From NCBI GenBank assembly GCA_023384495.1, contig JAHDWG010000024.1:1-32662 (forward strand): a stretch of 32,662 bases of DNA, in the 5' to 3' direction. The stretch comes from Caldilineaceae bacterium. GTDB taxonomy: Bacteria; Chloroflexota; Anaerolineae; Caldilineales; Caldilineaceae. This document shows, in pieces, positions 5,274 through 30,255 of the stretch. The notes under the pieces are model-generated. The model was not told the origin of the DNA, searched no databases, and saw only the letters and a program-made list of their open reading frames with translations. The position numbers and the translations under genes are program-made. Numbering within the stretch: position 1 is the stretch's first letter; every line of letters starts with the position of its first letter.

Positions 5274-8200
5274 CTACCGTAAAGCGTCGGCCACAACGGG
5301 CAGATAGAGCGTGTGTGGCAAGCCCGCCGCGCCATCGTCAGGCCCATCCGGCCACAACGTAAACCGGGCCTCAGTCACAAGGTCAGGCTCGATCACAATC
5401 GCCAATCGCTCCGGCGCGCGATAGTCGGCGGGGGCCTCCAAATGATGCAGGTACTCACCAGCGAGCACCTCCTCAATTGTGTAGTACCCGTTGGGCTCAC
5501 TCTGTACGGGATAGCGATGGCGCCTCTCCAATTGATTCCGTTCTTCGAGCACGGCGGTCACTGCGGCGACAACCGGCGCGCCCGACGGGTCCAATATCTG
5601 GCCGCGCAATGCGCCTGGCGCCGCAGGGTTTTCCACCAGTTCGACTTCGTCCTCGGGTTCGATGATGGCGTTGGCATCGTTGCCGGCCACTTTTTCGAGG
5701 CGGACAGCGTCGACGCCATAGCGATCCCCCACAGCGTCGAACGGCGCAAGCCAGAAGCGCAGCCGCACATTGGTGGTGGGCTGGCTAAAGCCGGTGGTGA
5801 CAAATTCAACCGCAAAGGTTTGCCAGACGCTGGTCAGATCGACCCGATGGCCGTTGAGACCGTAATTGCCGCCCCCACTGTGAGGGTGGAGGAAGAGCGA
5901 CAGGTCGTTGCCGCTGTTGGAATAGGCCGCAAAGCTGAGTCGGTATCGGGTGTTGGGTTCGAGCAAGAACCCATACTGGTAGAGTTGTACGTTCGACCCC
6001 TGCGTTTGGATGGTGACCTGTGCCGCGCGATCGCACTCGTAGCCAGGGCTGACCGAGGTGAAGCTCCCTTTGCCGTCGGTATAGAAGCGCCAGAAGTCGG
6101 TTCCGCTTTCGAAGCTCGGGTTGCCCAGCACATTCCCTGGCGCTGCGCTGCACATACCGCTCTCCGGTGTGTTCGTGGCGGTGGCCGTGGGCGTGACGGT
6201 GGCTGTCGGCGGAGGTGTCGGTGTGTCGTCAGCCCCAGTGTCGACGGTTGGCGTTGCCGTGGGGGTGGGGGTCGGCGCCGGCGTGTTGACAGCCGGTGGG
6301 GTTGGGGTGGCGGTGGGCGTCGCAGTGGCCTGTGGCGGGGCCGACGTACAGGCCGACGTGTTCTCGTAGAGCAGGACGCGCCCGTGCGTCCAGCCAATCG
6401 AGACGACATCCAGATCGCCGTCCCCGTCCACATCAAACAACTGCGTCCCGTCGTGGTGCTCGTCGCCAGTGTGGATGAGGTGGAGCGCCCACTCGCCCCC
6501 ACGCCCGTCGAGGTTTTCAATCGCATAGACGCGCAGGGTATGGAGTTGGCTACCGGAGCCACGGTGCTGCCCCGCCACAATGTCCAGGTCGCCATCGCCA
6601 TCCATGTCACCCACGTCGATGCTTTGCGGCGATGTGTTCGACGGTGTGGTCAAATTGGCGACAAGGTGTTCGGGCCAGGCGGCAAAGGGGGATGCCTGTT
6701 GCTCATACCAGGCGACTTTGGACTCTGGGTCATGCCCGTAGCCAACCACGACATCAAGATCGCCGTCGCCGTCCATGTCCGCAAGCACGTTGCGGTCGGG
6801 CGCGCCGCTGGTGAAGGTGTAGACCGGGATGGGGGTCCACTGGTCGCCGGGGCCGTCGTTGCGCACCCAATGCGAGCCTGTGAAGAGATCAACATCCCCA
6901 TCGAAGTCGATGTCGGCGCTGCTCAGCGCCTCGCCCTCGGAAAAGGCCGTGGCCTGGCGACGTGGCCAAATGCCAACGCTCGGGTCATCGGGCACGGTCA
7001 ACATCTGGATGCCGCCCAGGTTGTTGTCCCACGCGATGGCGACCTCAAGCGGCCCCCCTGGTTGGAAATGGGCAATCGTCACCCCCTGGACGGGCCTGTT
7101 TTCTCGAATGCTCAGATTGCTGTCGATGTTGTCGAACACCGTAAAATTGCCAGCCCCATCATTGCGCGCCCACACAAAGGGCAGTTGATTGTTGACGCCG
7201 GCTGTGCCCAGCAGGTCGATGTGGCCATCGCCATCAAAGTCATGGACGGCGATCGTATCGTCAAACGGGGCGCCGATGGGGAATCGTTGCCACGCGCCGG
7301 TGGCGAAGCCTGGGTTGCGATACCAGAAGCGACCCGTGATCACATCGGTGCGCCCATCCCCATCGATGTCGGCCAGGTAGACAAAGGCGGAGCGCCCTGG
7401 GCGGTCGGCGTCAATCACATGGCGCTGCCACTGGTCGAGTCGGGCAACACAGCCAGCCGGGTTGAGCTGGTTGAGGAGAATGTCCACACGGGGGGCGCCA
7501 TGATTATACGGTTTGACGAGGATATCCAGATCATCGTCGCCATCCAGGTCGGCCAGACGCGACTCGTGGTTGTCCAGCCCCGTCGCGACCACAGTGGCCG
7601 TGAAATTGCCGGTTCCGTCGCCTAGAAGGAGCCAGGTCTTGCTGGCGCTGTTGCCGCCGTTGAGCCGCATTTCGGCCACAAAGATATCGAGATGCCCATC
7701 GCGGTTGGCGTCGGCAACTTCCAAGCTATGACCACGGTTGACATTGACGCCCAACAGGTTTCGTCCTACCCAGGCGTTGTTCTTCCATTCGTAAAGCATG
7801 AGCGGGCCAATCACATCACCGGCCACAAAGACGATCTCGGGGCGCCCACCGGGGATAAACTGACCAGCCGCGGCCCGTGTAAAGCGCTGGGCGTCGTCGA
7901 TGACCTGTTCGGCAAAGGTCATAGCGCCGGTGTGTTTGAACCAACGCCCCCCGCCGATGATGTCGACCAGACCGTCGCCGTCCACGTCGGCCTGAGCCAG
8001 ACCTTCCATCTCATCGCCGGTATAGGCATAGATCTCGACCAAGGGCCACGGCTGGGCTGTGCGCGGGTCGGCAGGGATTTCTGCCAGCAAGAGCTTGGCC
8101 GCGCGCTGATTCCAAAAGACCAGCTCGACCTTGCCATCGCCGGTGAAATCGCCAAACATCATGTCGTGATGCTTGCCCAAGCCACTGTTTTTGATCTCAC

Positions 8201-10109
8201 GGCGCGTCCAGCCCGTATGGATGTCGAAATTGGGGTAGGGATTCTCCCACCACCAGACCTTGTTGGTGCGAGCGTCTCCGCCCATGACGATGTCCAGATC
8301 GCCGTCGCCATCGATATCAAAATAGGCGCCGCCTGCCTCGATATCGAGAATCTCGTTGTCGATCAAGTATCGTTGCCAGCCGGTGGCATGTCGTCGATAC
8401 CATACCGCCGAGGGCGCGCCAGTGCGACGGCTGGCGATCACAAAATCGTTGACGCCATCCTTGTCAATATCCAGCACCAGCGCGGCGGTCTGTTCGGTGC
8501 TGCTGCCGGGAAGCTGGATATCGCCCGTTGCAGATGAGAGGTGTTGCCAGGTGAGTGCGCCGCCACCGCCGTCACTGGCCGAAAACTGGGCGGAGACCTG
8601 CTTGTTGCCATCCATTACGAGGGTGACTGGGTTGTTGCTGCCGGTCAGTGCGCCGCCCCATGCGCGAAAGGTGTGCCCGGCGCCTGGGATCGCGGTCAAG
8701 CTGACCGGTTCACCCGGCGCATAGCTTGCCTTCTGCGGGTCAACCGCCACCGCGCCACTGCCAGACGTCGTAACCGTAAGCGTATATTGGGGTGGCGCAC
8801 CGTGCTGTTCCACTGCGCCCACGGTGACCGCCACCTCTTTGTATGCGCTGCGGACGACGGCTGCTGCCGGTGCGCCGGCAATCTCGTCCATGAGGCCGAT
8901 GGTAAATTGTTTGGGTTGCGAGTTCAGCAATTTGTGGTTATTGCCAATGCGCCGGCCAAAGCCAAAGAGGGCCATCGCGCCGCCGGCGTCCGAGAGGGTA
9001 CGGTAGGAATCCTCGATGCCATCTTCATCGTGGTGGATCAGAAAGAGGGCGCGCCCGAGCGTGGGGTCAGCGATGTAGACCCACTCTTCGCCATTCAGAT
9101 CACCCGTCCACGATTGGGAGAGAAAATTCTGCGCGCCATCCGAGCGGACAAGGAAATCGCGATCAGGCTCGACACTTCCGCCGGGCGTCCCTTCATAGAG
9201 AAACCAGTAGGCGTGGTCAAAGTCGAGGACGCTCATGCGGGCATAGGTTGGGAAGAAGTCCCACACCACATGCCAAATGCGGGCGTCGGCATCGGTGTTG
9301 ACCTGGGTCGAAATCGACTTTTTCAGCGGGCCACTGTGCACGAGTACGGTCGTATGCCCCGTCGCGCCGGGGTGTAGCTTGCCTTCGGGATGCACCATAT
9401 TGGGGATGCCCCGGTAGCTGCCGCCCGAACTCTTGCTAGGCGTTGGGCTGTAGCTGATCCAGTCGTTGCCCTCTGTGTCATCCAGGCTGGAAAACCCACC
9501 GCCTTCTTTGTGATAGTAATAGGTTGCGTTGGCCGTCTGGATGCGAAAACTCTCTTGCCCCTGGTCTGTCACCGTGCTGATGGCGGTCTGATCGGGGAAG
9601 ATTGGCGCAGTCAATCCGCTGCCGGCCACATCGAAATAGAGATGGAACGTACGTTGGGCCGCAGGGGGCGTTTCGCCCGTCAAGAGAAAGGTCAAAGTCC
9701 CCGATGCGTTGGTTTGGGGATTGAACGCCGGCGCCAGGTCAAACTGATAGGGTTGATCGGGCAGGGCTGCGCCGGTGACGCTGTCGATCTCAACGAGACG
9801 CAGCGAGTTCAAGTCAATCTGCTGGCCGGCCCCTACGGTGTTGAGCAGGGTTGTAAAGTTCAATGGCGCTTCAACCGGCTTATCGATGCGCGCATGACCA
9901 TTGGCGCCGATGGTGATGGCCACGCGATAGCGCCAACCATCATGCCACCATGCCGAGACGGACGAGGCGACCACGGCAGGGGGCCCAAAAAATCCAGCAG
10001 CAGCTTTGCCATACACATGAGGGTTCGCAAAAAAAGGGGCGTAATGAGCGAGTCCGGCCAGCGATCCGAGCGCCAGCAATAACACAACAACACGAGTCAC
10101 ATAAGGCAT
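5274..10109 (-). CDS. Large secreted FG-GAP/VCBS repeat protein with CBM-like domain
   Basis: A 1611-residue exported protein. Residues 1-30 form a signal peptide (MPYVTRVVVLLLALGSLAGL). The ATG at 10109 is preferred over upstream frames because GGGAGAG sits six bases before it. Residues ~50-425 start WRYRVAITI (DUF2341-like) and run into a beta-sandwich region (YYYHKEGGGFSSLDD ... FLYEGTPGGS ... FGFGRRIG) resembling lyase/galactose-mutarotase-like domains. Residues ~440-506 are an InlB/Flg_new-type repeat (GSGAVAVDPQKASYAPGE). Residues ~523-1250 hold twelve Ca-loop FG-GAP/VCBS repeats such as DIDGDGDLD and DMDGDGDLD. A Thr/Pro linker follows at ~1258-1313, a CBM4_9-like domain (GNPSFESG ... 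DAVRLEKV) at ~1320-1473, and a carboxypeptidase-regulatory-like domain at ~1493-1600. The tail is LYLPVVADALR. It is a tandem paralogue of the next gene. A role in binding or degrading extracellular polysaccharide is inferred; no catalytic residues could be assigned. Confidence 0.85.
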   Translation of the reverse strand: MPYVTRVVVLLLALGSLAGLAHYAPFFANPHVYGKAAAGFFGPPAVVASSVSAWWHDGWRYRVAITIGANGHARIDKPVEAPLNFTTLLNTVGAGQQIDLNSLRLVEIDSVTGAALPDQPYQFDLAPAFNPQTNASGTLTFLLTGETPPAAQRTFHLYFDVAGSGLTAPIFPDQTAISTVTDQGQESFRIQTANATYYYHKEGGGFSSLDDTEGNDWISYSPTPSKSSGGSYRGIPNMVHPEGKLHPGATGHTTVLVHSGPLKKSISTQVNTDADARIWHVVWDFFPTYARMSVLDFDHAYWFLYEGTPGGSVEPDRDFLVRSDGAQNFLSQSWTGDLNGEEWVYIADPTLGRALFLIHHDEDGIEDSYRTLSDAGGAMALFGFGRRIGNNHKLLNSQPKQFTIGLMDEIAGAPAAAVVRSAYKEVAVTVGAVEQHGAPPQYTLTVTTSGSGAVAVDPQKASYAPGEPVSLTAIPGAGHTFRAWGGALTGSNNPVTLVMDGNKQVSAQFSASDGGGGALTWQHLSSATGDIQLPGSSTEQTAALVLDIDKDGVNDFVIASRRTGAPSAVWYRRHATGWQRYLIDNEILDIEAGGAYFDIDGDGDLDIVMGGDARTNKVWWWENPYPNFDIHTGWTRREIKNSGLGKHHDMMFGDFTGDGKVELVFWNQRAAKLLLAEIPADPRTAQPWPLVEIYAYTGDEMEGLAQADVDGDGLVDIIGGGRWFKHTGAMTFAEQVIDDAQRFTRAAAGQFIPGGRPEIVFVAGDVIGPLMLYEWKNNAWVGRNLLGVNVNRGHSLEVADANRDGHLDIFVAEMRLNGGNSASKTWLLLGDGTGNFTATVVATGLDNHESRLADLDGDDDLDILVKPYNHGAPRVDILLNQLNPAGCVARLDQWQRHVIDADRPGRSAFVYLADIDGDGRTDVITGRFWYRNPGFATGAWQRFPIGAPFDDTIAVHDFDGDGHIDLLGTAGVNNQLPFVWARNDGAGNFTVFDNIDSNLSIRENRPVQGVTIAHFQPGGPLEVAIAWDNNLGGIQMLTVPDDPSVGIWPRRQATAFSEGEALSSADIDFDGDVDLFTGSHWVRNDGPGDQWTPIPVYTFTSGAPDRNVLADMDGDGDLDVVVGYGHDPESKVAWYEQQASPFAAWPEHLVANLTTPSNTSPQSIDVGDMDGDGDLDIVAGQHRGSGSQLHTLRVYAIENLDGRGGEWALHLIHTGDEHHDGTQLFDVDGDGDLDVVSIGWTHGRVLLYENTSACTSAPPQATATPTATPTPPAVNTPAPTPTPTATPTVDTGADDTPTPPPTATVTPTATATNTPESGMCSAAPGNVLGNPSFESGTDFWRFYTDGKGSFTSVSPGYECDRAAQVTIQTQGSNVQLYQYGFLLEPNTRYRLSFAAYSNSGNDLSLFLHPHSGGGNYGLNGHRVDLTSVWQTFAVEFVTTGFSQPTTNVRLRFWLAPFDAVGDRYGVDAVRLEKVAGNDANAIIEPEDEVELVENPAAPGALRGQILDPSGAPVVAAVTAVLEERNQLERRHRYPVQSEPNGYYTIEEVLAGEYLHHLEAPADYRAPERLAIVIEPDLVTEARFTLWPDGPDDGAAGLPHTLYLPVVADALR
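6171..6335 (-). repeat. Thr/Pro-rich low-complexity linker within the large FG-GAP protein
   Basis: The coding sequence here is a degenerate short-period repeat of ACN-GCN-ACN-CCN codons, giving (T-P/A) runs such as TATPTATPTPP and TPAPTPTPTATPT. It joins the FG-GAP repeats to the CBM-like domain and is of the kind that is often glycosylated in secreted proteins. The paralogue has a related linker at about 10860-11020. Confidence 0.8.
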
Positions 10110-10512
10110 GAATCTCTCCCGAAGCATAAACGGCGCCGCCAACGGATTCGGTCTACCAGATCGGTGGTAAGCCGAGTCTACCGCTATCAGACGACAGGCC
10201 CCCACAAAAAGCGCGCGCCACAGTGCTGCTCTGCGCCGAAGGCAACAGCTCTCGTTAGAAAAATGCGCGTTCTGCGGCCCAAAATACCGAGAGGAACGAT
10301 AGGGACTCGCCTACCGCAAACGATCATAACTCAGTAGATGTCGTTTGTCGTCGGTTAAATTACCGAGAGATGGCTAACTTTTGTCGCAATATCACTACCG
10401 GACACTTTTCATCTTTGCGCTTTTGCAGGGTTGGAAACCCACTCCTGACAGCGAAACGTCGCCGCATCGCCTTGATTTTCAGCGCCTGGTAGCAAATGTC
10501 ACACCATCATGT
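10110..10512. other. Intergenic region between the two FG-GAP genes
   Basis: About 400 bases with no credible gene: open frames here are antisense extensions of the flanking genes. It should hold the 3' end of the upstream paralogue's transcript and the promoter of the downstream one. I see the near-repeat TACCGAGAG at about 10287 and 10362 but no convincing hairpin with a T-run and no clear sigma70 promoter. Confidence 0.5.
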
Positions 10513-13338
10513 TTAGCGCCGAACAAAGGGAAGGAACAAGCGGTGGCGCGCTTGCCCCGCCAGTGGGCTTACGGCATGTTCCACCTGAGTGACCGAACCC
10601 GCGGTCACTGCGAGCACAACCGGCTCGGGCGGGATATAGGCGGCGCGGGGTATGATCAGCAGCCAGTAGTCGCCCACTGGCACGTGAGGCAGATGATAGA
10701 CACCTTGCGTAGAGGTCGTCACGACATAGCGATGACGCCCTTGGGCGCCGTCCCGCGCGTCCAACTCAATTTCAAATTCCCCCTGAACGGGCCGCGGGGT
10801 ATCCCCCGCCACTTCATAGACAACCCCACGCACCACACCCATATCCTGTGAAGCCACTGGGGTTGCCGTCGGCTCGGGTGTAACTGTCAGGTGCTCAATC
10901 GGTGTGCGCTGGGGCGTCGTTGTCGGCCTGGCAGGGGTCTGAACTGGCGTCTCTTGGGATGGCGTCACGGTTGGTGTCTGCGTTGGCTCAAGGGTAGGTG
11001 TTGGCTCCATCGTGGGTTCGCTAGAGGGCTGGCAGCCCGGCGCCACGTTTTCATAGAGGAGCACGCGACGGTGTGTCCAGCCGATGGAGACGATGTCCAG
11101 ATCGCCATCGTTGTCGATGTCAACGGCCAGCGCGCCATCGTGGTGCTCATCACCCCGATAGACCAGGTGGGGCCGCCATTCTTGCCCAAGTCCATCCACA
11201 TTTTCAAAGATGAGGAGCCGCGCCTCGGCGGGACGGCGGGTGTTGTGCTCGCCCACAATCATGTCGAGGTCGCCATCGCCGTCGATGTCGGCCACATCGA
11301 GGCTCATGGGGCCAATGACCGTGGCCACGATCTGTTCAGCCCACGGCTGTGTAGGGTCTTCGGGTTGTTGATACCAGGCCACAATGCCCGGCGCGCTGAC
11401 CGCTTCATAGCCGACCACCGCGTCCAGCCGGCCATCTTGATTGATATCGGCCAGCCGGTTGCGGTCTGGGTCGTGATCGGTGGCAAAGAGCGTGTGGGCG
11501 CTCCAGCCTGCGGGGTTGTCACCCGCGCCCGGCTCGTTGCGCAGCCATTGTGTGCCCAGCAACAGATCCATGTGGCCGTCACCATCAATGTCGCCAGCGC
11601 TGAGCGCTTCGTTCTGCGAAACCTCAGAAACCCGCTCCCACACCCACGGCTCATTGCTTGGGTCCGCAGGGACACGCAGGCGCTGGACGCCCTGCCCGGG
11701 CTGGTGCCACGAGAGCATCACTTCGGGCGTATCGAGCTGGAAACGGTCGATGGCGACCCCTTGCAGAAAGTCGCCCTGCCCCGGTGGCGCATTGGTGAGC
11801 ACGGTGAACTGGCCGTCGCCATCGTTGCGCGCCCAGGCCAGGTTGGGGTTGCGCCCCTGAGCCTGCCACTGCGAGCCAAAGAGATCGGGCCGGCCATCGC
11901 CATCGAAGTCATAGACCGCGGCTACATTGGCCAGGGGAGCGCCCAAGTCGTGGCGGACCCAGGGTCTGTTGGGGCGGCCGGCATGTTCGTACCACCAACC
12001 GCCGGTGACAATCTCCAACCGCCCGTTGCCGGTCAAGTCGGCCGCCGCGACAAAGAGGGTGCGCCAGGGTGCGCTTGCATCGACGATGCGGCGCTGCCAC
12101 AGGCGGGGCGTGGGCTGGCAGACCGTCTGGTTGAGCCAGATATCAAGGCGGGGCGTCTCGTGATTGTAGGGCTTGCCCAAGATGTCCAGATCGCCGTCGC
12201 CATCGAGATCAGCCAGCACCGACTCGTGGTTGTCGTAGCTGACGGCCACCTCAGTCCGCTCGAAATTGCCCTGGCTGTCGCCCAGGAACGCCCACATGCG
12301 CGAAGTCGGGTGGCCGCCATTGAGGCGCATCTCAGCCGCAAATATGTCCAGATGGCCATCCAGGTCAATATCACCAATCGCCAGGCTGTGGCCGCGCGTA
12401 ATCGGTTCATCGAGCAGGGCGTGGGCAACCCAACCGTCGTCCGCCCATTCATACCAGCGCAGCGGGCCGACCTGGTCACCGGCGCCGAACACCACTTCCG
12501 GGCGCCCGCCCGCCACCAGTTGGCCGACGGCGGCGCGGGTAAAGCCCATGGATTCGTCGATGACATGGGCAATAAAGTGATCGTGTTTGGGATCGTATTC
12601 GAACCAACGGCCACCCCCCACCAGGTTCGCCACGCCATCAAGGTTGATGTCGCCCTGGGCCAGTCCCTCTAGCTCGCTGTCGCCTTCCCAAGTGAAGATC
12701 GCCCGGTGCGCCCACTCTTCGTCTATGTGTGGGTCGGCGGGGATCTCCGCCAACATCAGCTTTTGGGCGCGCTGATTCCAAAAGACTAGCTCGGCATGGC
12801 CATTGCCGGTGAAATCGCCAACGATCATGTCGTGGTGTTTGGATGAGCCGCTGTTTTTGATCGTGCGCCGCGTCCAGCCGGCGTCGGGGTCAAAATCAGG
12901 CGCGGGGTTTTCCCACCACCAGATTTGGTTGCTCCGCTGGTCGCCACCGAAGACAATATCGAGGTCGCCATCACCGTCAATGTCATAGAATGCGCCGCCG
13001 GCTTCAATGTCCAACACCTCAGCGTCGATGAGATGGCGATCCCAGCCCTCGACGTGGCGACGATACCAGACCACCGACGGCGCGCCATCGCGGCGGCTGG
13101 CGATGACAAAGTCGTTGACCCCATCGCCGTCAATATCGAGCACAAGGGCGGCGGTCTGTTGCGTGCTGCTGCTGGGCGGCGCCAGGTTGCCATAGGCGGT
13201 GGAAAGGTGTAGCCAGGTGAGCGGGTTGGCCTGCGCGCTGGCGCGAGGCTGTGGCTTACCCTGGATGAGTGAGGCCGTCAGGGCGGCGGCCAACAGCACA
13301 GCAATCAGGGAATATTGAGGGGGAGGGGTGTGGCTCAT
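10513..13338 (-). CDS. Secreted FG-GAP/VCBS repeat protein (paralogue of the neighbouring gene)
   Basis: A 941-residue exported protein. The start at ATG 13338 gives MSHTPPPQYSLIAVLLAAALTASL, a signal peptide, with GGAG eight bases upstream. Residues ~40-766 contain twelve Ca-binding loops (for example DIDGDGVND, DLDGDGDLD, DIDNDGDLD) collinear with those of the downstream paralogue. Whole blocks are near-identical, such as DFVIASRR.GAPS.VWYRRH, NSG..KHHDM, GDEHHDG and SIGWTH.RVLLYEN. A Thr/Pro linker (~772-826) leads to a carboxypeptidase-regulatory-like domain (~830-920) and the tail RHRLFLPFVRR. It lacks the N-terminal lyase-like region, the InlB-like domain and the CBM of the larger copy. 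FG-GAP repeats fold as beta-propellers used in extracellular binding. The two genes are most simply read as a tandem duplication followed by domain gain or loss. Confidence 0.85.
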   Translation of the reverse strand: MSHTPPPQYSLIAVLLAAALTASLIQGKPQPRASAQANPLTWLHLSTAYGNLAPPSSSTQQTAALVLDIDGDGVNDFVIASRRDGAPSVVWYRRHVEGWDRHLIDAEVLDIEAGGAFYDIDGDGDLDIVFGGDQRSNQIWWWENPAPDFDPDAGWTRRTIKNSGSSKHHDMIVGDFTGNGHAELVFWNQRAQKLMLAEIPADPHIDEEWAHRAIFTWEGDSELEGLAQGDINLDGVANLVGGGRWFEYDPKHDHFIAHVIDESMGFTRAAVGQLVAGGRPEVVFGAGDQVGPLRWYEWADDGWVAHALLDEPITRGHSLAIGDIDLDGHLDIFAAEMRLNGGHPTSRMWAFLGDSQGNFERTEVAVSYDNHESVLADLDGDGDLDILGKPYNHETPRLDIWLNQTVCQPTPRLWQRRIVDASAPWRTLFVAAADLTGNGRLEIVTGGWWYEHAGRPNRPWVRHDLGAPLANVAAVYDFDGDGRPDLFGSQWQAQGRNPNLAWARNDGDGQFTVLTNAPPGQGDFLQGVAIDRFQLDTPEVMLSWHQPGQGVQRLRVPADPSNEPWVWERVSEVSQNEALSAGDIDGDGHMDLLLGTQWLRNEPGAGDNPAGWSAHTLFATDHDPDRNRLADINQDGRLDAVVGYEAVSAPGIVAWYQQPEDPTQPWAEQIVATVIGPMSLDVADIDGDGDLDMIVGEHNTRRPAEARLLIFENVDGLGQEWRPHLVYRGDEHHDGALAVDIDNDGDLDIVSIGWTHRRVLLYENVAPGCQPSSEPTMEPTPTLEPTQTPTVTPSQETPVQTPARPTTTPQRTPIEHLTVTPEPTATPVASQDMGVVRGVVYEVAGDTPRPVQGEFEIELDARDGAQGRHRYVVTTSTQGVYHLPHVPVGDYWLLIIPRAAYIPPEPVVLAVTAGSVTQVEHAVSPLAGQARHRLFLPFVRR

Positions 13339-13367
13339 GGTTTGCTCCGGTTTGGCTCGTTGTAGCG

Positions 13368-13379
13368 TCCGTATACGGA
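13368..13379. promoter_or_regulatory. 12-bp perfect palindrome upstream of FG-GAP gene
   Basis: TCCGTATACGGA lies 30 bases upstream of the ATG at 13338. Its size and place fit a dimeric regulator's operator in the 5' leader, but a chance palindrome cannot be excluded. Confidence 0.35.
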
Positions 13380-13450
13380 GTCCCGCGTCGTGCAGCCCAG
13401 AACAGGCGGAGGCGGACAGCGCACGGCTCATCGTGCGTTCTGACGATAAA

Positions 13451-23390: not shown

Positions 23391-24371
23391 TTATTGAAAG
23401 AGCGGCAATGTTGCCGGCGGCATCCCAATGGTCGCGCCAACCGTGTAGGGCTCGCCACCCGCCGCTGTCACGACGGCGAGATTGTCGATGATCGCGCCAT
23501 CCGGCACGGCTTCATCGACCTGGATGCGCACCATGACAGAGACGGAAGCCCCAGCCGCAAGCACCGGCCATGTGATGGTAAAGGCCAGTTGCCCCGCCTG
23601 GGCTTGCTCTGCGACCACGGCGCCGGCGCCGTCGGCCAACGCCTCGACCAAGGCCAGTTCGGAAGGCAATTCATCGCGCAGGGTAACCGCCAGCGCAGCA
23701 TCCTGCCCTAGATTGGTAATTCGATAGCGCAAAGCCAACTGCTGCCCCTGCCACGCAAAAGCGGGAACCTGCTCGACATCCACCGCCAGCATGGGCGCGC
23801 CCGCGGCTGTCACCTCGACAGGCGCGGCTGCCGGCGCACCAGCGGCCGAATCAATCACGGCCAGCAACTCGTTGGCCTGGGCGGCGTCAACATTGAGACG
23901 CACAAATTGGGCGCTTACCCACCCTTCGGTCGTTGTGCCCGACGCACAACAGATGCGCCACCACTGGCTGTCGGCGTTGCGGGCCAGAATCTGCAATGTT
24001 TCGCCGCTCACCACGGCGCCAATGATTGCGCTGTTGACGCCAGGGCCGGCGCGCACATTGAGACGATTGGCCGTCACCACGCCCGTAAGGGGCGCCGTGC
24101 TCGTCTGGGCTTCAGCGGCCTGCGGCGTGGCCGCGGGCGGCGGCGACGGTTCTTCGTCGCGATCACTGCTTGGGCGGCTCGGGGTGGCTGTGGCCGGGGG
24201 CGCCGTGGTAGGGGGTGGGGTGGGGTCGGGCACAGTCTGGTAGTTGGGCGCAGCGGTGGCTGTGCGACCGGCGGCCAGGAAGAGGGCGACGAGTATCAAC
24301 CCCGCCAGCCCCACCCAATAGCTTCGCAACCAGGCGCTCATCGTATGCGGTGTGCTTCGAATCTCTTTCAT
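23391..24371 (-). CDS. Secreted SH3b-domain protein with C-terminal DUF11-like domain
   Basis: A 326-residue protein. The start at ATG 24371 gives MKEIRSTPHT and then the hydrophobic segment WVGLAGLILVALFLAAG (signal or anchor); earlier frame lies in a structured intergenic element and is rejected. A Pro/Thr/Ala-rich region follows (PTPPPTTAPPATATPSRP), then a bacterial SH3 domain (LNVRAGPGVNSAIIGAVVSGETLQI ... WVSAQFVRL) of the kind that binds peptidoglycan stems, and a C-terminal beta domain resembling DUF11/CARDB (LRYRITNLGQDAALAVTLRDELPSELALV ... VRIQVDEAVPDGAIIDNLAVV). The last residues are TLPLFQ. It is first in the operon with DUF2723 and DUF4012, suggesting a wall-associated complex. 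The Cys pair (WRICCAS) inside the SH3 domain is unusual. Confidence 0.8.
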   Translation of the reverse strand: MKEIRSTPHTMSAWLRSYWVGLAGLILVALFLAAGRTATAAPNYQTVPDPTPPPTTAPPATATPSRPSSDRDEEPSPPPAATPQAAEAQTSTAPLTGVVTANRLNVRAGPGVNSAIIGAVVSGETLQILARNADSQWWRICCASGTTTEGWVSAQFVRLNVDAAQANELLAVIDSAAGAPAAAPVEVTAAGAPMLAVDVEQVPAFAWQGQQLALRYRITNLGQDAALAVTLRDELPSELALVEALADGAGAVVAEQAQAGQLAFTITWPVLAAGASVSVMVRIQVDEAVPDGAIIDNLAVVTAAGGEPYTVGATIGMPPATLPLFQ

Positions 24372-24733: not shown

Positions 24734-25774
24734 TTATCGACGAGGCGAGCGGCGACCCCAGCGCGCCGCGCCTACCGCAAAGCCAAGCCCCAGGGCCATC
24801 GCCCGCACCCAGAGCATCCCCAGCCCAGGCAACAGCAGATCCGGCGAGCGGCGGGCAAGTTTACGCAAAAAGGGCGCGGCTGAACCGACAAAGGCAAGGG
24901 CAGACACGCCGGTGATCCCATACAACCAGCGGCGGAGCGCGCCCCGGCTTATCGCGCCTACACCAGTCGCAAGCATCATCAGCGCGGCCAGGCCCATCTG
25001 CGCCTTGAGCGTTTGCGGGGTGTGGCTGTCTTGCACCAATCGGTCAGGATGCCAGCGCGTCAGCAGCGCCTTCCAATAGCCGATGTGGAACTTGCGTCGT
25101 GCGTAGTTGCGGACGCTCTCCACATGTTGATGCTCGACCCACGCCGCCGGCACAAAGTGTAGTTTGTGCCCTTGCTTGACGAGCCGAAAGCTCAGTTCCT
25201 GATCCTCACAGGCAATGAGGCGGGCGTCAAAGCCCCCCTGCGCCAAGAAGATCTCGCGTCGATAGCCCGCCGCATAGGTGTCGATAAAATCGATGGTGGG
25301 GCGACAATGCATCCGATCATAGCGGTCTTCGTATTCAGCCTGGACAAAACGCGCCACCCATGCCTGCTGCTGCGTCCGATAAACGCCTTTGACGCCCGCC
25401 ACATCGGGCTGACTGAGGGCCGCAAGCATGGTGGCGATCCAATCGGGGGCCGGGGCGCAATCGGCGTCGGTGAACAGGAGCAGCGGCGCGTTGGCGGCCT
25501 GGGCGCCGGTGTTACGTGCGGCGGCTGGGCCGGCGTTGGCCTGCTGCAACAGCCGCAGATGGATTTCAGGGCGCCCCGCCGCCCATGCTTGGATCCGAGC
25601 AACCGTATCATCGCGCGAGCCGTCGTCCACGATGATCAACTCATAGTCACTGGCGGGCGCGCTCTGGTTCGCCAGCGCGCGCAGACACTGCTCAATGGTG
25701 GCAGCCCCATTATAGACGGGGACAATCACCGAACAGCGCAGCGTATCGCGCGCAAAGGGCGAATGGGTCGTCAT
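24734..25774 (-). CDS. Family 2 glycosyltransferase
   Basis: A 346-residue protein. The N-terminal GT-A domain (about 14-235) has CSVIVPVYNGAATIEQCLRALANQ, ELIIVDDGSRDDT, NAGPAAARNTGAQAANAPLLLFTDADCAP (the metal-binding DxD-like TDAD) and IACEDQELSFRLVKQG (catalytic ED motif of processive and surface GT2 enzymes). The C-terminal ~100 residues hold two or three hydrophobic segments (AQMGLAALMMLATGVGAI, LYGITGVSALAFVGSA, GMLWVRAMALGLGFAVG), so it is membrane-bound and transfers sugar from a nucleotide donor at the cytoplasmic face. The ATG at 25774 lies 23 bases after the sortase-like gene's stop, so the two are probably cotranscribed. Donor and acceptor are unknown; envelope polysaccharide synthesis is inferred from the neighbourhood. 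Confidence 0.9.
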   Translation of the reverse strand: MTTHSPFARDTLRCSVIVPVYNGAATIEQCLRALANQSAPASDYELIIVDDGSRDDTVARIQAWAAGRPEIHLRLLQQANAGPAAARNTGAQAANAPLLLFTDADCAPAPDWIATMLAALSQPDVAGVKGVYRTQQQAWVARFVQAEYEDRYDRMHCRPTIDFIDTYAAGYRREIFLAQGGFDARLIACEDQELSFRLVKQGHKLHFVPAAWVEHQHVESVRNYARRKFHIGYWKALLTRWHPDRLVQDSHTPQTLKAQMGLAALMMLATGVGAISRGALRRWLYGITGVSALAFVGSAAPFLRKLARRSPDLLLPGLGMLWVRAMALGLGFAVGAARWGRRSPRR

Positions 25775-25797: not shown

Positions 25798-26493
25798 CTA
25801 TTCCACCGGCTCAACCAGCTCGGCAACGACAAAGACCCGGTGTGTGGTCGAGAAGTCAGGCCAACCTGTTGCCAGGGTGAGCAATGCGGCGTCACTGGGC
25901 GAGACATAGGCTGCGGCGCGCGCCTCATCGGCAACGGTCGCCCCAATCAGGGGAATGGGTTCGCTGACATCGATCACTTTGTATTCGAACACAGCGCCCG
26001 TCGTGTCGGTCAACAGAATGCGCTGGTCGATTTCGACCGCGCCTTGGGCCAGCGCCGCGAATGGCGCCGCGCCCATCGTCTGGTGGCCCGAGAGGATGAC
26101 GCGCCCCGACGCGCCGGGCAGAGCGCTGTTGACATGCCAACCCACCGCATCCTCGGGCAGCGCCCATTGGGTTGTGCGCTCGTCGTCAATGATGACCACC
26201 TCCCACCCCATGGGGACCACCGCCACGTCGAGTTCGATTGCCGGGATTGCCAAACGCATGGGGGAGACCGTCGCGGGCGAAAATGGTTGAGCGGCGTCCG
26301 CAGGTTCAACTTCCCCCGTGGGCGCGTTCGTGGCCGGTGGTGTGGGTGTTGGGATCAAGTTGACCTGGCAGCCAGCCAATACCAGGGCCGCGCTGACCAG
26401 CCAAAGCAGGGCGAAGCTCAACATCGAATGGTCTAGCCGGGAACGAGCCGATCCCCGAGCGGCGGGGATGAGGGTGGAACGAAGTTGTACCAT
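25798..26493 (-). CDS. Sortase-fold lipoprotein lacking the catalytic cysteine
   Basis: A 231-residue protein. ATG 26493 follows AAGGAAG by five bases and gives a lipoprotein signal with lipobox VLAGC (Cys42), then a short Pro/Thr spacer. The rest is a sortase domain: MRLAIPAIELDVAVVPMGW, LPEDAVGWHVNSALPGASGRVILSGHQTM with the family His (His137), EIDQRILLTDTTGAVFEYKVIDVSEPIP and the segment LTLATGWPDFSTTHRVFVVAELV. Sortases carry TLxTC here; the sequence reads TLATG with Gly210 from GGT (codon 25866-25864), one base from the Cys codon TGT. The distal Arg (in THRVFV) is retained. Either this is a non-catalytic sortase homologue, or the base is wrong. Lipid anchoring instead of a transmembrane helix is also unusual. 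It is paired with a GT2 gene. Confidence 0.85.
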   Translation of the reverse strand: MVQLRSTLIPAARGSARSRLDHSMLSFALLWLVSAALVLAGCQVNLIPTPTPPATNAPTGEVEPADAAQPFSPATVSPMRLAIPAIELDVAVVPMGWEVVIIDDERTTQWALPEDAVGWHVNSALPGASGRVILSGHQTMGAAPFAALAQGAVEIDQRILLTDTTGAVFEYKVIDVSEPIPLIGATVADEARAAAYVSPSDAALLTLATGWPDFSTTHRVFVVAELVEPVE

Positions 26494-26962: not shown

Positions 26963-27066
26963 GTGTGTGTGCATTCCTGCGCTAACCTGACCACGAGCCG
27001 ACATCCAAGTGCAGCATGCGCATTTTGGCGTCCGCCCCTCACGCGGGCCAACCGAGAGTTACCTCT

Positions 27067-30000
27067 ATGCACCGATGGCGTCACCATATTTCCATCTTAC
27101 TAAGTGTATGCATATTCTGGGCGTCCATCGCATTGCCTGTGCTCGCGCAGGTCGCCACACCGACGCCAGCTGGGGGGGTCTCTGCTTCTGACGCCATGCG
27201 GGCGCAGATCCAAGCTGAAGAAGCCGCACTACAAAGCCAACTGGAGTTGCTCCTGGCGCGCATGTCCCCCGCCGACCGTGTCGGCCAGCTCTTTGTGGTC
27301 TCGTTCGTTGGCAATGACACCAGCTTCAACAGTGACATTGCCCAGCTGATCTACGATTATCGGATCGGCGGCGTTGTGCTCAGCCCGCGCGACAACAACT
27401 TCAGTAATGGGCGTGGGATCGACACGCCCGGTCAAGTGGCTGCGCTCACCAATCGGCTGCAAGCGCTGGTTTTTGGCGTGCTTCTGCCAGAGGGCCAAGC
27501 GCTTGCATGGACGGCCGATGAGCCGTGGCCCCCCCCCGGTATGCTTTCATTGACCAGCCGGACTGGCGCGCCCCCGCCGGCGATCCCGCTCTTGATCGGG
27601 GTGGAACAGTGGGGCGATGGCCTACCCCACACTGCACTGCGCCGTGACTTCACCCCGCTGCCTTCCCAGATGGCGTTGGGCGCCACCTGGAACCTCGATC
27701 TGGCGCGCAAGGTGGGCCAGATCGTGGGGCGCGAACTCCAGGCCGTGGGCGTCAATATGTTGCTTGGCCCCAACCTGGATGTGTTCGACCAACCGCGCGC
27801 CGATAGCGTGGGCGCGCTGAGCCTGCACTCGTTTGGCGGCAACCCCTATTGGGTGGGCCAGATGGGGCGGGCCTATATTGCCGGCGTCCATGAGGGCGGG
27901 GTGGGGCGGGTGGCCACCATGGCGCGCAATTTCCCCGGCCAAGGCAACATCGACCGCCTGCCGGAGCAGGAGATCGCAACCGTGCAACTGGGATTGGACG
28001 AGTTCCGCCAGACTGCGCTGGCGCCCTTTCGCATGGTCACGAGGCAGACCTCGGTGATCCTGCGCCGCGACGGCGACCTCTACACCAGCGCCGGCCTGAT
28101 GACGAGTCACATGCGCTACAATGCCCTTCCCGGTCGCGCCACACCTATCAGCCTGGGGCCTGAACTGAGCATGACGCTCGAACAGGAAGGCTTTGCCGAC
28201 TGGCACGCCAACGGGGGCGTGATCATGAGCAACCCGATTGGCACCCCCGCGATCCGCCGCTACTATGACCCAACCCTGCGCGACTTCTCACCGCGGCGGG
28301 TGGCGCTGGATGTCTTTGTCGCCGGCCACGACCTGATCTATCTGGACAGCCTGAACCTTGACGGCGATTGGGAAAGCGAAAAGCAGACCATCTTTGAGAC
28401 GATAGGCTTCTTTCAAGAACGATACACGGCCGATCCCGACTTTGCTGCCCGTGTGGATGCGGCCGTCCAGCGCATTCTCCGCCTTAAGCTGCGGCTCTAT
28501 GGCCCAACGTTTGTGCCCGCGCCTGTTGTCACCAATAACGGGGTGATTACCGCCACGGCGACAGTCACCGACGCCGGGCCGATCACAACGACCGCAACCC
28601 TGACGCCGCCTCTGGTGGGCCCACCGCAGGTATTGGTGGGGGCAGGTGGACTAGATGTGTTTACGGGAACGCTGCGCGCCGACGCCCATGCTGTTATCGG
28701 GCAGGTGGCGCGCGAGTCGCTCACCGTGCTCTATCCGGATCTTCAGAGCCTGCCCACTGTGTTGCCAACGGCGCCTCAGGCCGAAGACAAACTGCTCATC
28801 TTCAGCGATAGCCGCCTTTTGCGCGAGTGCGATCTCTGCACCGCTGAGGCTGCCCTGGGCCCCGATGACATTGCCGCCATTATCAATCGCCTTTACGGTT
28901 CGCAGGCCACCGGCCAAATTCTGGCCGAACGCGTCGTCAGTGAAACGTTTGTCGACCTCGACCACCTGCTGCAAAGCACGGCGACGACCGCGGCTGATTC
29001 ACTCTCGGCTGCGGCCGGGGTCACCCCCACCGTAACCGTGACCACCGGCGCGGGACAGACGCCAACCGCCATTGACCTCGATGTGCGTGAATCGCTGACA
29101 CAGACAGCCGAAACACTCGACAAGATCGCAAGGCTGGAGCAGGCCATTGATGAAGCTACTTGGATCATCTTTGCCATGCTCGATGTGGATGCGCAGAGTT
29201 CGTCCACGAGTACGGTGGTCAAGCGCTTTCTCAATCAACGTAGCGAAGAGTTGCGTGGCAAGAATGTGATTGTCCTGGCGCTCAATGCACCATACTTTCT
29301 CGACGCCACCGAAATCAGCAAGTTGACCGCCTATTTTGGCGTCTATGGCAAGACGCGCCCCTTCCTCGAAAGCGCCGTGCGTGCGGTCTTCCGCAGCTAC
29401 ACGCCCGGGGGGGCGCCGCCCGTCAGCGTGCCGGGCACGCTGTATGGCAGCCTGGCCGAACGGCTCCAGCCTGCGCCGCGCAACGATGTCCCGTTGCGGA
29501 TTCTTGTGGGCGACAGCGAGTTGAGCCTTCAGGCGGACGAAGAAGCGCCGCCCGTCGTATCGGTGGGTGACGTGATGCGGCTGCGCGTCGGCCCCGTTCT
29601 CGACCGCAATAGCCACCCAGTCCCCGACGGCACAACGGTCAGCTTTGAGTTGATCTACGAAGGGGAGAGCATGGCGCTCAACATCGAATCGGCATCCACC
29701 CGCAATGGTGTCGCCACGCGTGACGTGCCGCTGGAGCGCGCCGGTCGGCTGCTGGTTGCGGCTTCGTCGGGCCCGGCAACCACCAATGGCGCGGTGATGC
29801 TTGATGTCCAGCCTGTTGCTGTCCCCGATGAGGCGCTGACCTCCACCCCAGCCCCCGCCGCCGAGACGGTTCCGCTGACCGTTACGCCAGCCGTCAGTGT
29901 GACGCCGGGGGTCAACATCACGGATGTCTTTGACGATGGGCTGCCGTCGCTCTCTGCCAGCGGACGGCGGATCAACGTGGTGACGCTGGTCATCGCGCTT

Positions 30001-30255
30001 CTCACCATTTTTATTACGCTCTGTCTGTTGTTGATCGCCCAAGTGCAGATCCTGCCGCGCCCAGTCTTGGTTCACAATATGTTGTGGGCAACAATTTTTG
30101 GGCTATCCGCCTACATTCTCTATGGGCTGGGGATTTTGCCCGGGGTGACCTTGCTCCAACGGCGGCTGGATGTATTGGGGCCGGCGGTCGTCGTCTTTAT
30201 CGCCATGTTGATGCCCTTGTTGTGGCTGCAACTGCGTACCGAACAGACACAGTGA
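27067..30255 (+). CDS. GH3-family-like exported membrane protein, active-site residues altered
   Basis: A 1062-residue protein. ATG 27067 is preferred to 27016 because it begins a clean signal peptide (HHISILLSVCIFWASIALPVLA). Residues ~65-480 match the GH3 N-terminal barrel of NagZ type: MSPADRVGQLFVVSF, RIGGVVLS, LGATWNLDLARKVGQIVGRELQAVGVNMLLGPNLDV and LMTSHMRYNAL. The usual KHFPGxG...DxH loop reads RNFPGQGNIDRLP (Arg287, Asn288, Asp296), lacking both His residues. The nucleophile position, normally SD, is Ser388-Asn389 in VIMSNP. A GH3-C-like domain and a beta domain (~800-900) follow. Three transmembrane helices end the protein (about 968-992, 1004-1025, 1037-1057). Family members cleave beta-linked N-acetylhexosamines; here binding rather than hydrolysis is likely. 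Confidence 0.85.
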   Translation: MHRWRHHISILLSVCIFWASIALPVLAQVATPTPAGGVSASDAMRAQIQAEEAALQSQLELLLARMSPADRVGQLFVVSFVGNDTSFNSDIAQLIYDYRIGGVVLSPRDNNFSNGRGIDTPGQVAALTNRLQALVFGVLLPEGQALAWTADEPWPPPGMLSLTSRTGAPPPAIPLLIGVEQWGDGLPHTALRRDFTPLPSQMALGATWNLDLARKVGQIVGRELQAVGVNMLLGPNLDVFDQPRADSVGALSLHSFGGNPYWVGQMGRAYIAGVHEGGVGRVATMARNFPGQGNIDRLPEQEIATVQLGLDEFRQTALAPFRMVTRQTSVILRRDGDLYTSAGLMTSHMRYNALPGRATPISLGPELSMTLEQEGFADWHANGGVIMSNPIGTPAIRRYYDPTLRDFSPRRVALDVFVAGHDLIYLDSLNLDGDWESEKQTIFETIGFFQERYTADPDFAARVDAAVQRILRLKLRLYGPTFVPAPVVTNNGVITATATVTDAGPITTTATLTPPLVGPPQVLVGAGGLDVFTGTLRADAHAVIGQVARESLTVLYPDLQSLPTVLPTAPQAEDKLLIFSDSRLLRECDLCTAEAALGPDDIAAIINRLYGSQATGQILAERVVSETFVDLDHLLQSTATTAADSLSAAAGVTPTVTVTTGAGQTPTAIDLDVRESLTQTAETLDKIARLEQAIDEATWIIFAMLDVDAQSSSTSTVVKRFLNQRSEELRGKNVIVLALNAPYFLDATEISKLTAYFGVYGKTRPFLESAVRAVFRSYTPGGAPPVSVPGTLYGSLAERLQPAPRNDVPLRILVGDSELSLQADEEAPPVVSVGDVMRLRVGPVLDRNSHPVPDGTTVSFELIYEGESMALNIESASTRNGVATRDVPLERAGRLLVAASSGPATTNGAVMLDVQPVAVPDEALTSTPAPAAETVPLTVTPAVSVTPGVNITDVFDDGLPSLSASGRRINVVTLVIALLTIFITLCLLLIAQVQILPRPVLVHNMLWATIFGLSAYILYGLGILPGVTLLQRRLDVLGPAVVVFIAMLMPLLWLQLRTEQTQ

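Follow-up and report, generated by a model that had tools for sequence, protein, structure and literature searches.

Throughout a clade of Caldilineaceae (Chloroflexota), a lipid-anchored protein with the sortase fold has glycine in place of the catalytic cysteine, and a secreted DUF11 protein encoded in the same gene cassette has a C-terminal tail that no longer contains the Thr-Gly pair of a sorting signal. Judging from sequence comparison, the nucleophile and the scissile pair apparently disappeared together, with both proteins remaining conserved. We propose that this pseudo-sortase may act as a receptor at the membrane and bind the DUF11 tail, its candidate ligand, without cutting it, a reading to which we assign a probability of about 0.5. 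With slightly less confidence, we suggest that a sortase and the sorting signal dedicated to it may have jointly dropped their covalent chemistry to become a non-covalent receptor-ligand pair, in which the groove would read a free C-terminal LPxFx tail and thereby position a surface protein at the machinery for exopolysaccharide. The window referred to below is the complete stretch of 32,662 nucleotides that was analyzed, from a Caldilineaceae genome.

The pseudo-sortase gene (25798..26493, minus strand, as are all residues and cassette genes located below) encodes 231 amino acids, with the mature domain starting at Cys42. This residue belongs to the lipobox LAGC (26368..26370) and represents the lipid anchor according to the translation and the ortholog alignment; the lipobox is found in 22 of the 22 orthologs of the first alignment. 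One ortholog (L083, genome G318) lacks the lipobox Cys; its N-terminus carries a hydrophobic segment that may serve as a transmembrane anchor. The protein matches the Pfam Sortase family PF04203 (C60) with 55.1 bits (E = 8e-15), above the family cut-off of 26.6 bits, and its AF2 model (pLDDT 85.5, from an input alignment of 21 sequences) adopts the sortase beta-barrel fold. The best Foldseek match of this model is SrtE1 of S. coelicolor (5cuw, E = 1.4e-8), accompanied by many other sortases, and the NCBIfam class E profile NF033747 gives 37.7 bits, below its curated cut-off of 160 bits. Sequence match, fold and active-site Arg place the protein within the sortase family; what it lacks is the catalytic Cys of the TLxTC motif. 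That motif reads T206-L-A-T-G210-W-P, and translation of the codon GGT at 25864..25866 as Gly210 confirms the replacement described in the first-pass annotation. The catalytic-His position is occupied by His137 in SGHQT (26083..26085) and the active-site Arg position by Arg219 in THRVF (25837..25839). On another contig, the same genome encodes a second sortase (C129) with a normal Cys in the motif TLVSCWP. We rejected the idea that the pseudo-sortase is a recent duplicate of this enzyme, which lies elsewhere in the sortase tree.

Orthologs were searched in 60 related genomes and then in 396 genomes of the class, and neither set yielded any outside the family to which the window belongs; the genomes that carry them have contig titles that mostly name Caldilineaceae. 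In the search of 396 genomes the Gly clade scored 244-298 bits, versus 169 bits for the next best sequence. Glycine occupies the nucleophile position in 23/23 Caldilineaceae orthologs and Cys in 32/32 related sortases compared, and the nearest 14 sequences from outside the family all have Cys. Seen from the window alone, an isolated substitution, or an error of sequencing or assembly, might be suspected because GGT and TGT differ by one base; this explanation is already refuted, with a negligible residual probability, by 23 independent assemblies that have Gly and by the use of three different codons (GGC 18, GGT 2 and GGA 2 in the 22 orthologs checked). The alignment with sortases from related genomes, proposed as a check at first pass, therefore reveals a clade-wide state and not the exception of one genome. 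A tree built from 69 sortases groups the Gly proteins as a single clade, with a support of 100/100 and on a long stem, which positively answers the first-pass question whether Cys-less homologs constitute a conserved clade. This clade adjoins the Cys sortases of other families and stands apart from the Cys paralogs of its own, so that a single loss of Cys suffices to explain it.

The dN/dS ratios of the pseudo-sortase, from 0.13 to 0.24 in seven pairs, are similar to those of the Caldilineaceae Cys sortases and, together with the conservation described above, argue that the gene is maintained by purifying selection, in agreement with the earlier suggestion of a fold under constraint. A decaying gene on its way to being lost would account for the missing catalytic residues and for the 14 of 37 Caldilineaceae genomes, in the sample of relatives, in which neither the pseudo-sortase nor the TMEM260 ortholog of its cassette was found. 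We nevertheless regard decay as very improbable, since it is contradicted by the low dN/dS values, by reading frames that are open in 23 genomes of many genera, and by a cassette that stays together.

The changes in the active site extend to other residues. The catalytic His is present in 14/23 proteins of the Gly clade versus 32/32 Cys sortases, and Asn139, Asn193 and Asn216, invariant among the 32 Cys sortases, have been lost. Arg219 is kept in 23/23 members of the clade, which also retains His218, Trp211, Pro212 and Thr206, and Gln138, beside the His position, has become newly invariant. The claim that the family His and Arg are preserved consequently holds for both residues in the window, and clade-wide for Arg only. 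That the nucleophile and base were lost but the Arg retained would fit binding without catalysis. In the structure of SrtE1 this Arg may form a hydrogen bond with the backbone of the bound peptide (PMC5148588), which is consistent with its retention for binding. An active enzyme that uses an alternative nucleophile, such as Thr/Ser209 or Thr206, could be imagined because every member of the Gly clade has Thr206, with Thr or Ser at position 209; these residues are also present in the Cys enzymes, however, and the loss of the catalytic His in 9/23 proteins and of other invariant residues, together with a proposed substrate tail devoid of the scissile Thr-Gly, makes such an enzyme quite improbable.

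In nearly all genomes of the family that carry it, the pseudo-sortase heads a cassette with the order pseudo-sortase, GT2 (usually as a fusion with Bac_transf), SH3/DUF11, TMEM260-like and DUF4012. In the window, the GT2 glycosyltransferase gene (24734..25774) lies 23 bp downstream of the pseudo-sortase and has lost the C-terminal Bac_transf sugar-phosphate transferase half that is fused to the GT2 of most relatives. It is followed by the gene for the secreted SH3_3/DUF11 protein, a conserved cassette member and our proposed ligand (23391..24371, with a probable start at MKEIRST), and by the genes for a TMEM260-like membrane glycosyltransferase (PF11028; 21828..23357) and a DUF4012 protein (PF13196; 20371..21786), the latter being the last cassette gene as judged by synteny. 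Across the family, the pseudo-sortase and the TMEM260 ortholog are present or absent together, and the contig of the sole apparent exception (G003) stops within the GT2 gene. The GT2 gene is missing in two genomes (G017 and G022), where the sortase gene directly adjoins the DUF11 gene, and this absence weakens the candidacy of GT2 as an essential partner. The first-pass picture, in which a pseudo-sortase without Cys is anchored by a lipid and encoded beside GT2, is thus supported by one clade heading a syntenic cassette, and neither of the results named at first pass as refuting it has turned up; as a general rule for the clade, proximity to GT2 applies to nearly all genomes and fails in these two.

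Two further features of the window deserve mention. A divergent GH3-domain protein (27016-30255, plus strand) looks degenerate: its KHFPGHG-type motif reads ARNFPGQG, and SN stands in place of the SD nucleophile motif. SD is retained in most relatives, and about ten other Caldilineaceae genomes have Asn or Gly at the nucleophile, so that a second enzyme appears to have lost its nucleophile in some members of the family. In addition, two large, secreted-looking repeat proteins (5274-10205 and 10513-13431, minus strand) are encoded near each other and are apparently paralogous, with repeats that resemble FG-GAP/VCBS by eye.

A corresponding exopolysaccharide cluster occurs in two other families, f21 and f24, where a Cys sortase stands at its head in the same place as the pseudo-sortase. 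It is followed, with some losses, by genes for a Wzc-like kinase, a membrane protein, a GT2-transferase fusion and glycoside-hydrolase-like proteins and, further on where the contig extends, by DUF11, TMEM260 and DUF4012 genes. Because a Cys sortase heads these clusters, the change from Cys to Gly most likely happened in place, within the exopolysaccharide cluster. Family f15 branches as sister of the Gly clade in the sortase tree. In the loci read, the genes around its Cys sortase are unrelated to the cassette, and this family is therefore uninformative about the DUF11 tail. From motif and synteny, the probable substrate of the f21/f24 sortase is a dedicated DUF11 protein with LPPTG at its end. 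These LPPTG-tailed proteins are best described as putative substrates, because their tails have neither a hydrophobic segment nor a basic end.

The tails of the DUF11 proteins differ according to the sortase that accompanies them. In the families with Cys sortases, 9/9 orthologs (5/5 in f21, 4/4 in f24) end in LPPTG plus one to nine residues, a count that includes 4/9 genomes of fragmented assembly (G056, G141, G143 and G120) with the DUF11 gene on a contig other than that of the sortase, next to 5/9 with both on one contig. In the Gly family, none of the 23 DUF11 proteins encoded in the cassettes has LPxTG; 22 end in PPxx(L)PxFx-COOH, with one residue after the Phe, the remaining one (G013) ends in LPFAP, and the Leu of LP is absent from 5/23. 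The tail in the window, MPPATLPLFQ followed by the stop codon (23391..23423), is homologous to the LPPTG tail: homology between the two groups extends along the whole protein (hhalign E = 1.5e-37), and the profile alignment reaches LP and stops where Thr-Gly or Phe-x begins. The pattern P-P-x-x-x-P-x-F is invariant in 17/17 aligned DUF11 proteins, versus a mean column identity of 32%, and the SH3 domain is absent from about half of these 17. Conservation of the tail as part of the fold is disfavored, since it follows the last of the predicted strands and has a pLDDT of 64, although a structural role is still conceivable; the DUF11 model itself gives a generic Ig-like match to PDB folds. The window's DUF11 protein does not display the LPXTG sorting signal, with its LPxTG motif, hydrophobic segment and basic tail.

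A scan of six family genomes with the tail pattern recovered the cassette DUF11 proteins, one paralog and apparent chance matches, and the reversed pattern, used as a control, gave counts of similar size in some genomes. The DUF11 paralog (L200:5929-6927, minus strand) ends in LPPSALPDFR and lies beside an O-antigen-ligase-like (polysaccharide ligase) gene, with no sortase in view, so the tail could serve another partner. The family does possess canonical sorting signals: in a Caldilineaceae genome without the cassette (G011), the sortase loci L137 and L138 contain ORFs ending in LPVTG or LPDTG followed by a hydrophobic segment and a basic tail.

The joint loss of Cys and Thr-Gly is one evolutionary event and counts as one data point. 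Given that both halves of the chemistry were apparently lost and neither protein was, the most economical explanation would be that protein-protein recognition was always, or became, the useful part. Under the proposed mechanism, the pseudo-sortase would be the Caldilineaceae descendant of the sortase that heads the exopolysaccharide cluster of related families. In Caldilineaceae, Cys would have become Gly, the His would have drifted, and the DUF11 tail would have turned into PPxxLPxFx-COOH, with Arg and fold remaining. Anchored by its lipid outside the membrane, the pseudo-sortase would grip the DUF11 tail in the old substrate groove, and the DUF11 protein would be tethered at the site of surface-glycan assembly, near the glycan-assembly enzymes, without a covalent bond. 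We infer the absence of catalysis, the tail binding, the tethering and the glycan role in this system alike. The chief alternative, which we consider possible but rather doubtful, is that the pseudo-sortase serves as a binding or scaffold protein in exopolysaccharide assembly, with a glycan or another cassette protein as its partner, and that the DUF11 tail changed independently and binds something else. The glycan enzymes of the cassette, the single occurrence of the tail away from a sortase gene and new invariant positions such as Gln138, which suggest an altered pocket, are in line with this alternative, but the tail lacks Thr-Gly just where the neighboring sortase lacks Cys, and the sortase and DUF11 genes remain together where GT2 has been lost.

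Sortases are used by many bacteria to attach proteins to the cell wall. A His-Cys-Arg triad has been described as common to all native sortases (PMC8361268, PMC1569441, PMC13257024), and our searches of the open-access literature did not reveal any naturally Cys-less family of sortases. Class E sortases, represented by SrtE1, are the closest known relatives in structure, sharing the eight-stranded sortase barrel, the active-site Arg and the HR motif; unlike them, the pseudo-sortase has Gly for the nucleophile, a variable His, a lipid anchor and a class E profile score below the cut-off. The f21/f24 cluster resembles the LPXTG sortase systems of classes A-F in pairing a Cys sortase with a secreted, LPPTG-tailed protein, but the tails of these relatives lack a transmembrane segment and a basic end, and the Caldilineaceae pair has lost both Cys and Thr-Gly. 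The findings also point toward an undescribed sortase system in Chloroflexota exopolysaccharide clusters, with soluble LPPTG-tailed proteins as putative substrates. A conserved pseudo-sortase with a neighbor that has lost the corresponding cleavage site would clearly exemplify the conversion of a transpeptidase into a docking receptor. In the exosortase/PEP-CTERM system (EpsH), protein sorting is likewise tied to exopolysaccharide loci (PMC1569441). EpsH, however, is a multi-pass membrane protein that is not homologous to sortase and has kept its Cys, whereas the pseudo-sortase combines a lipoprotein anchor with a sortase domain.
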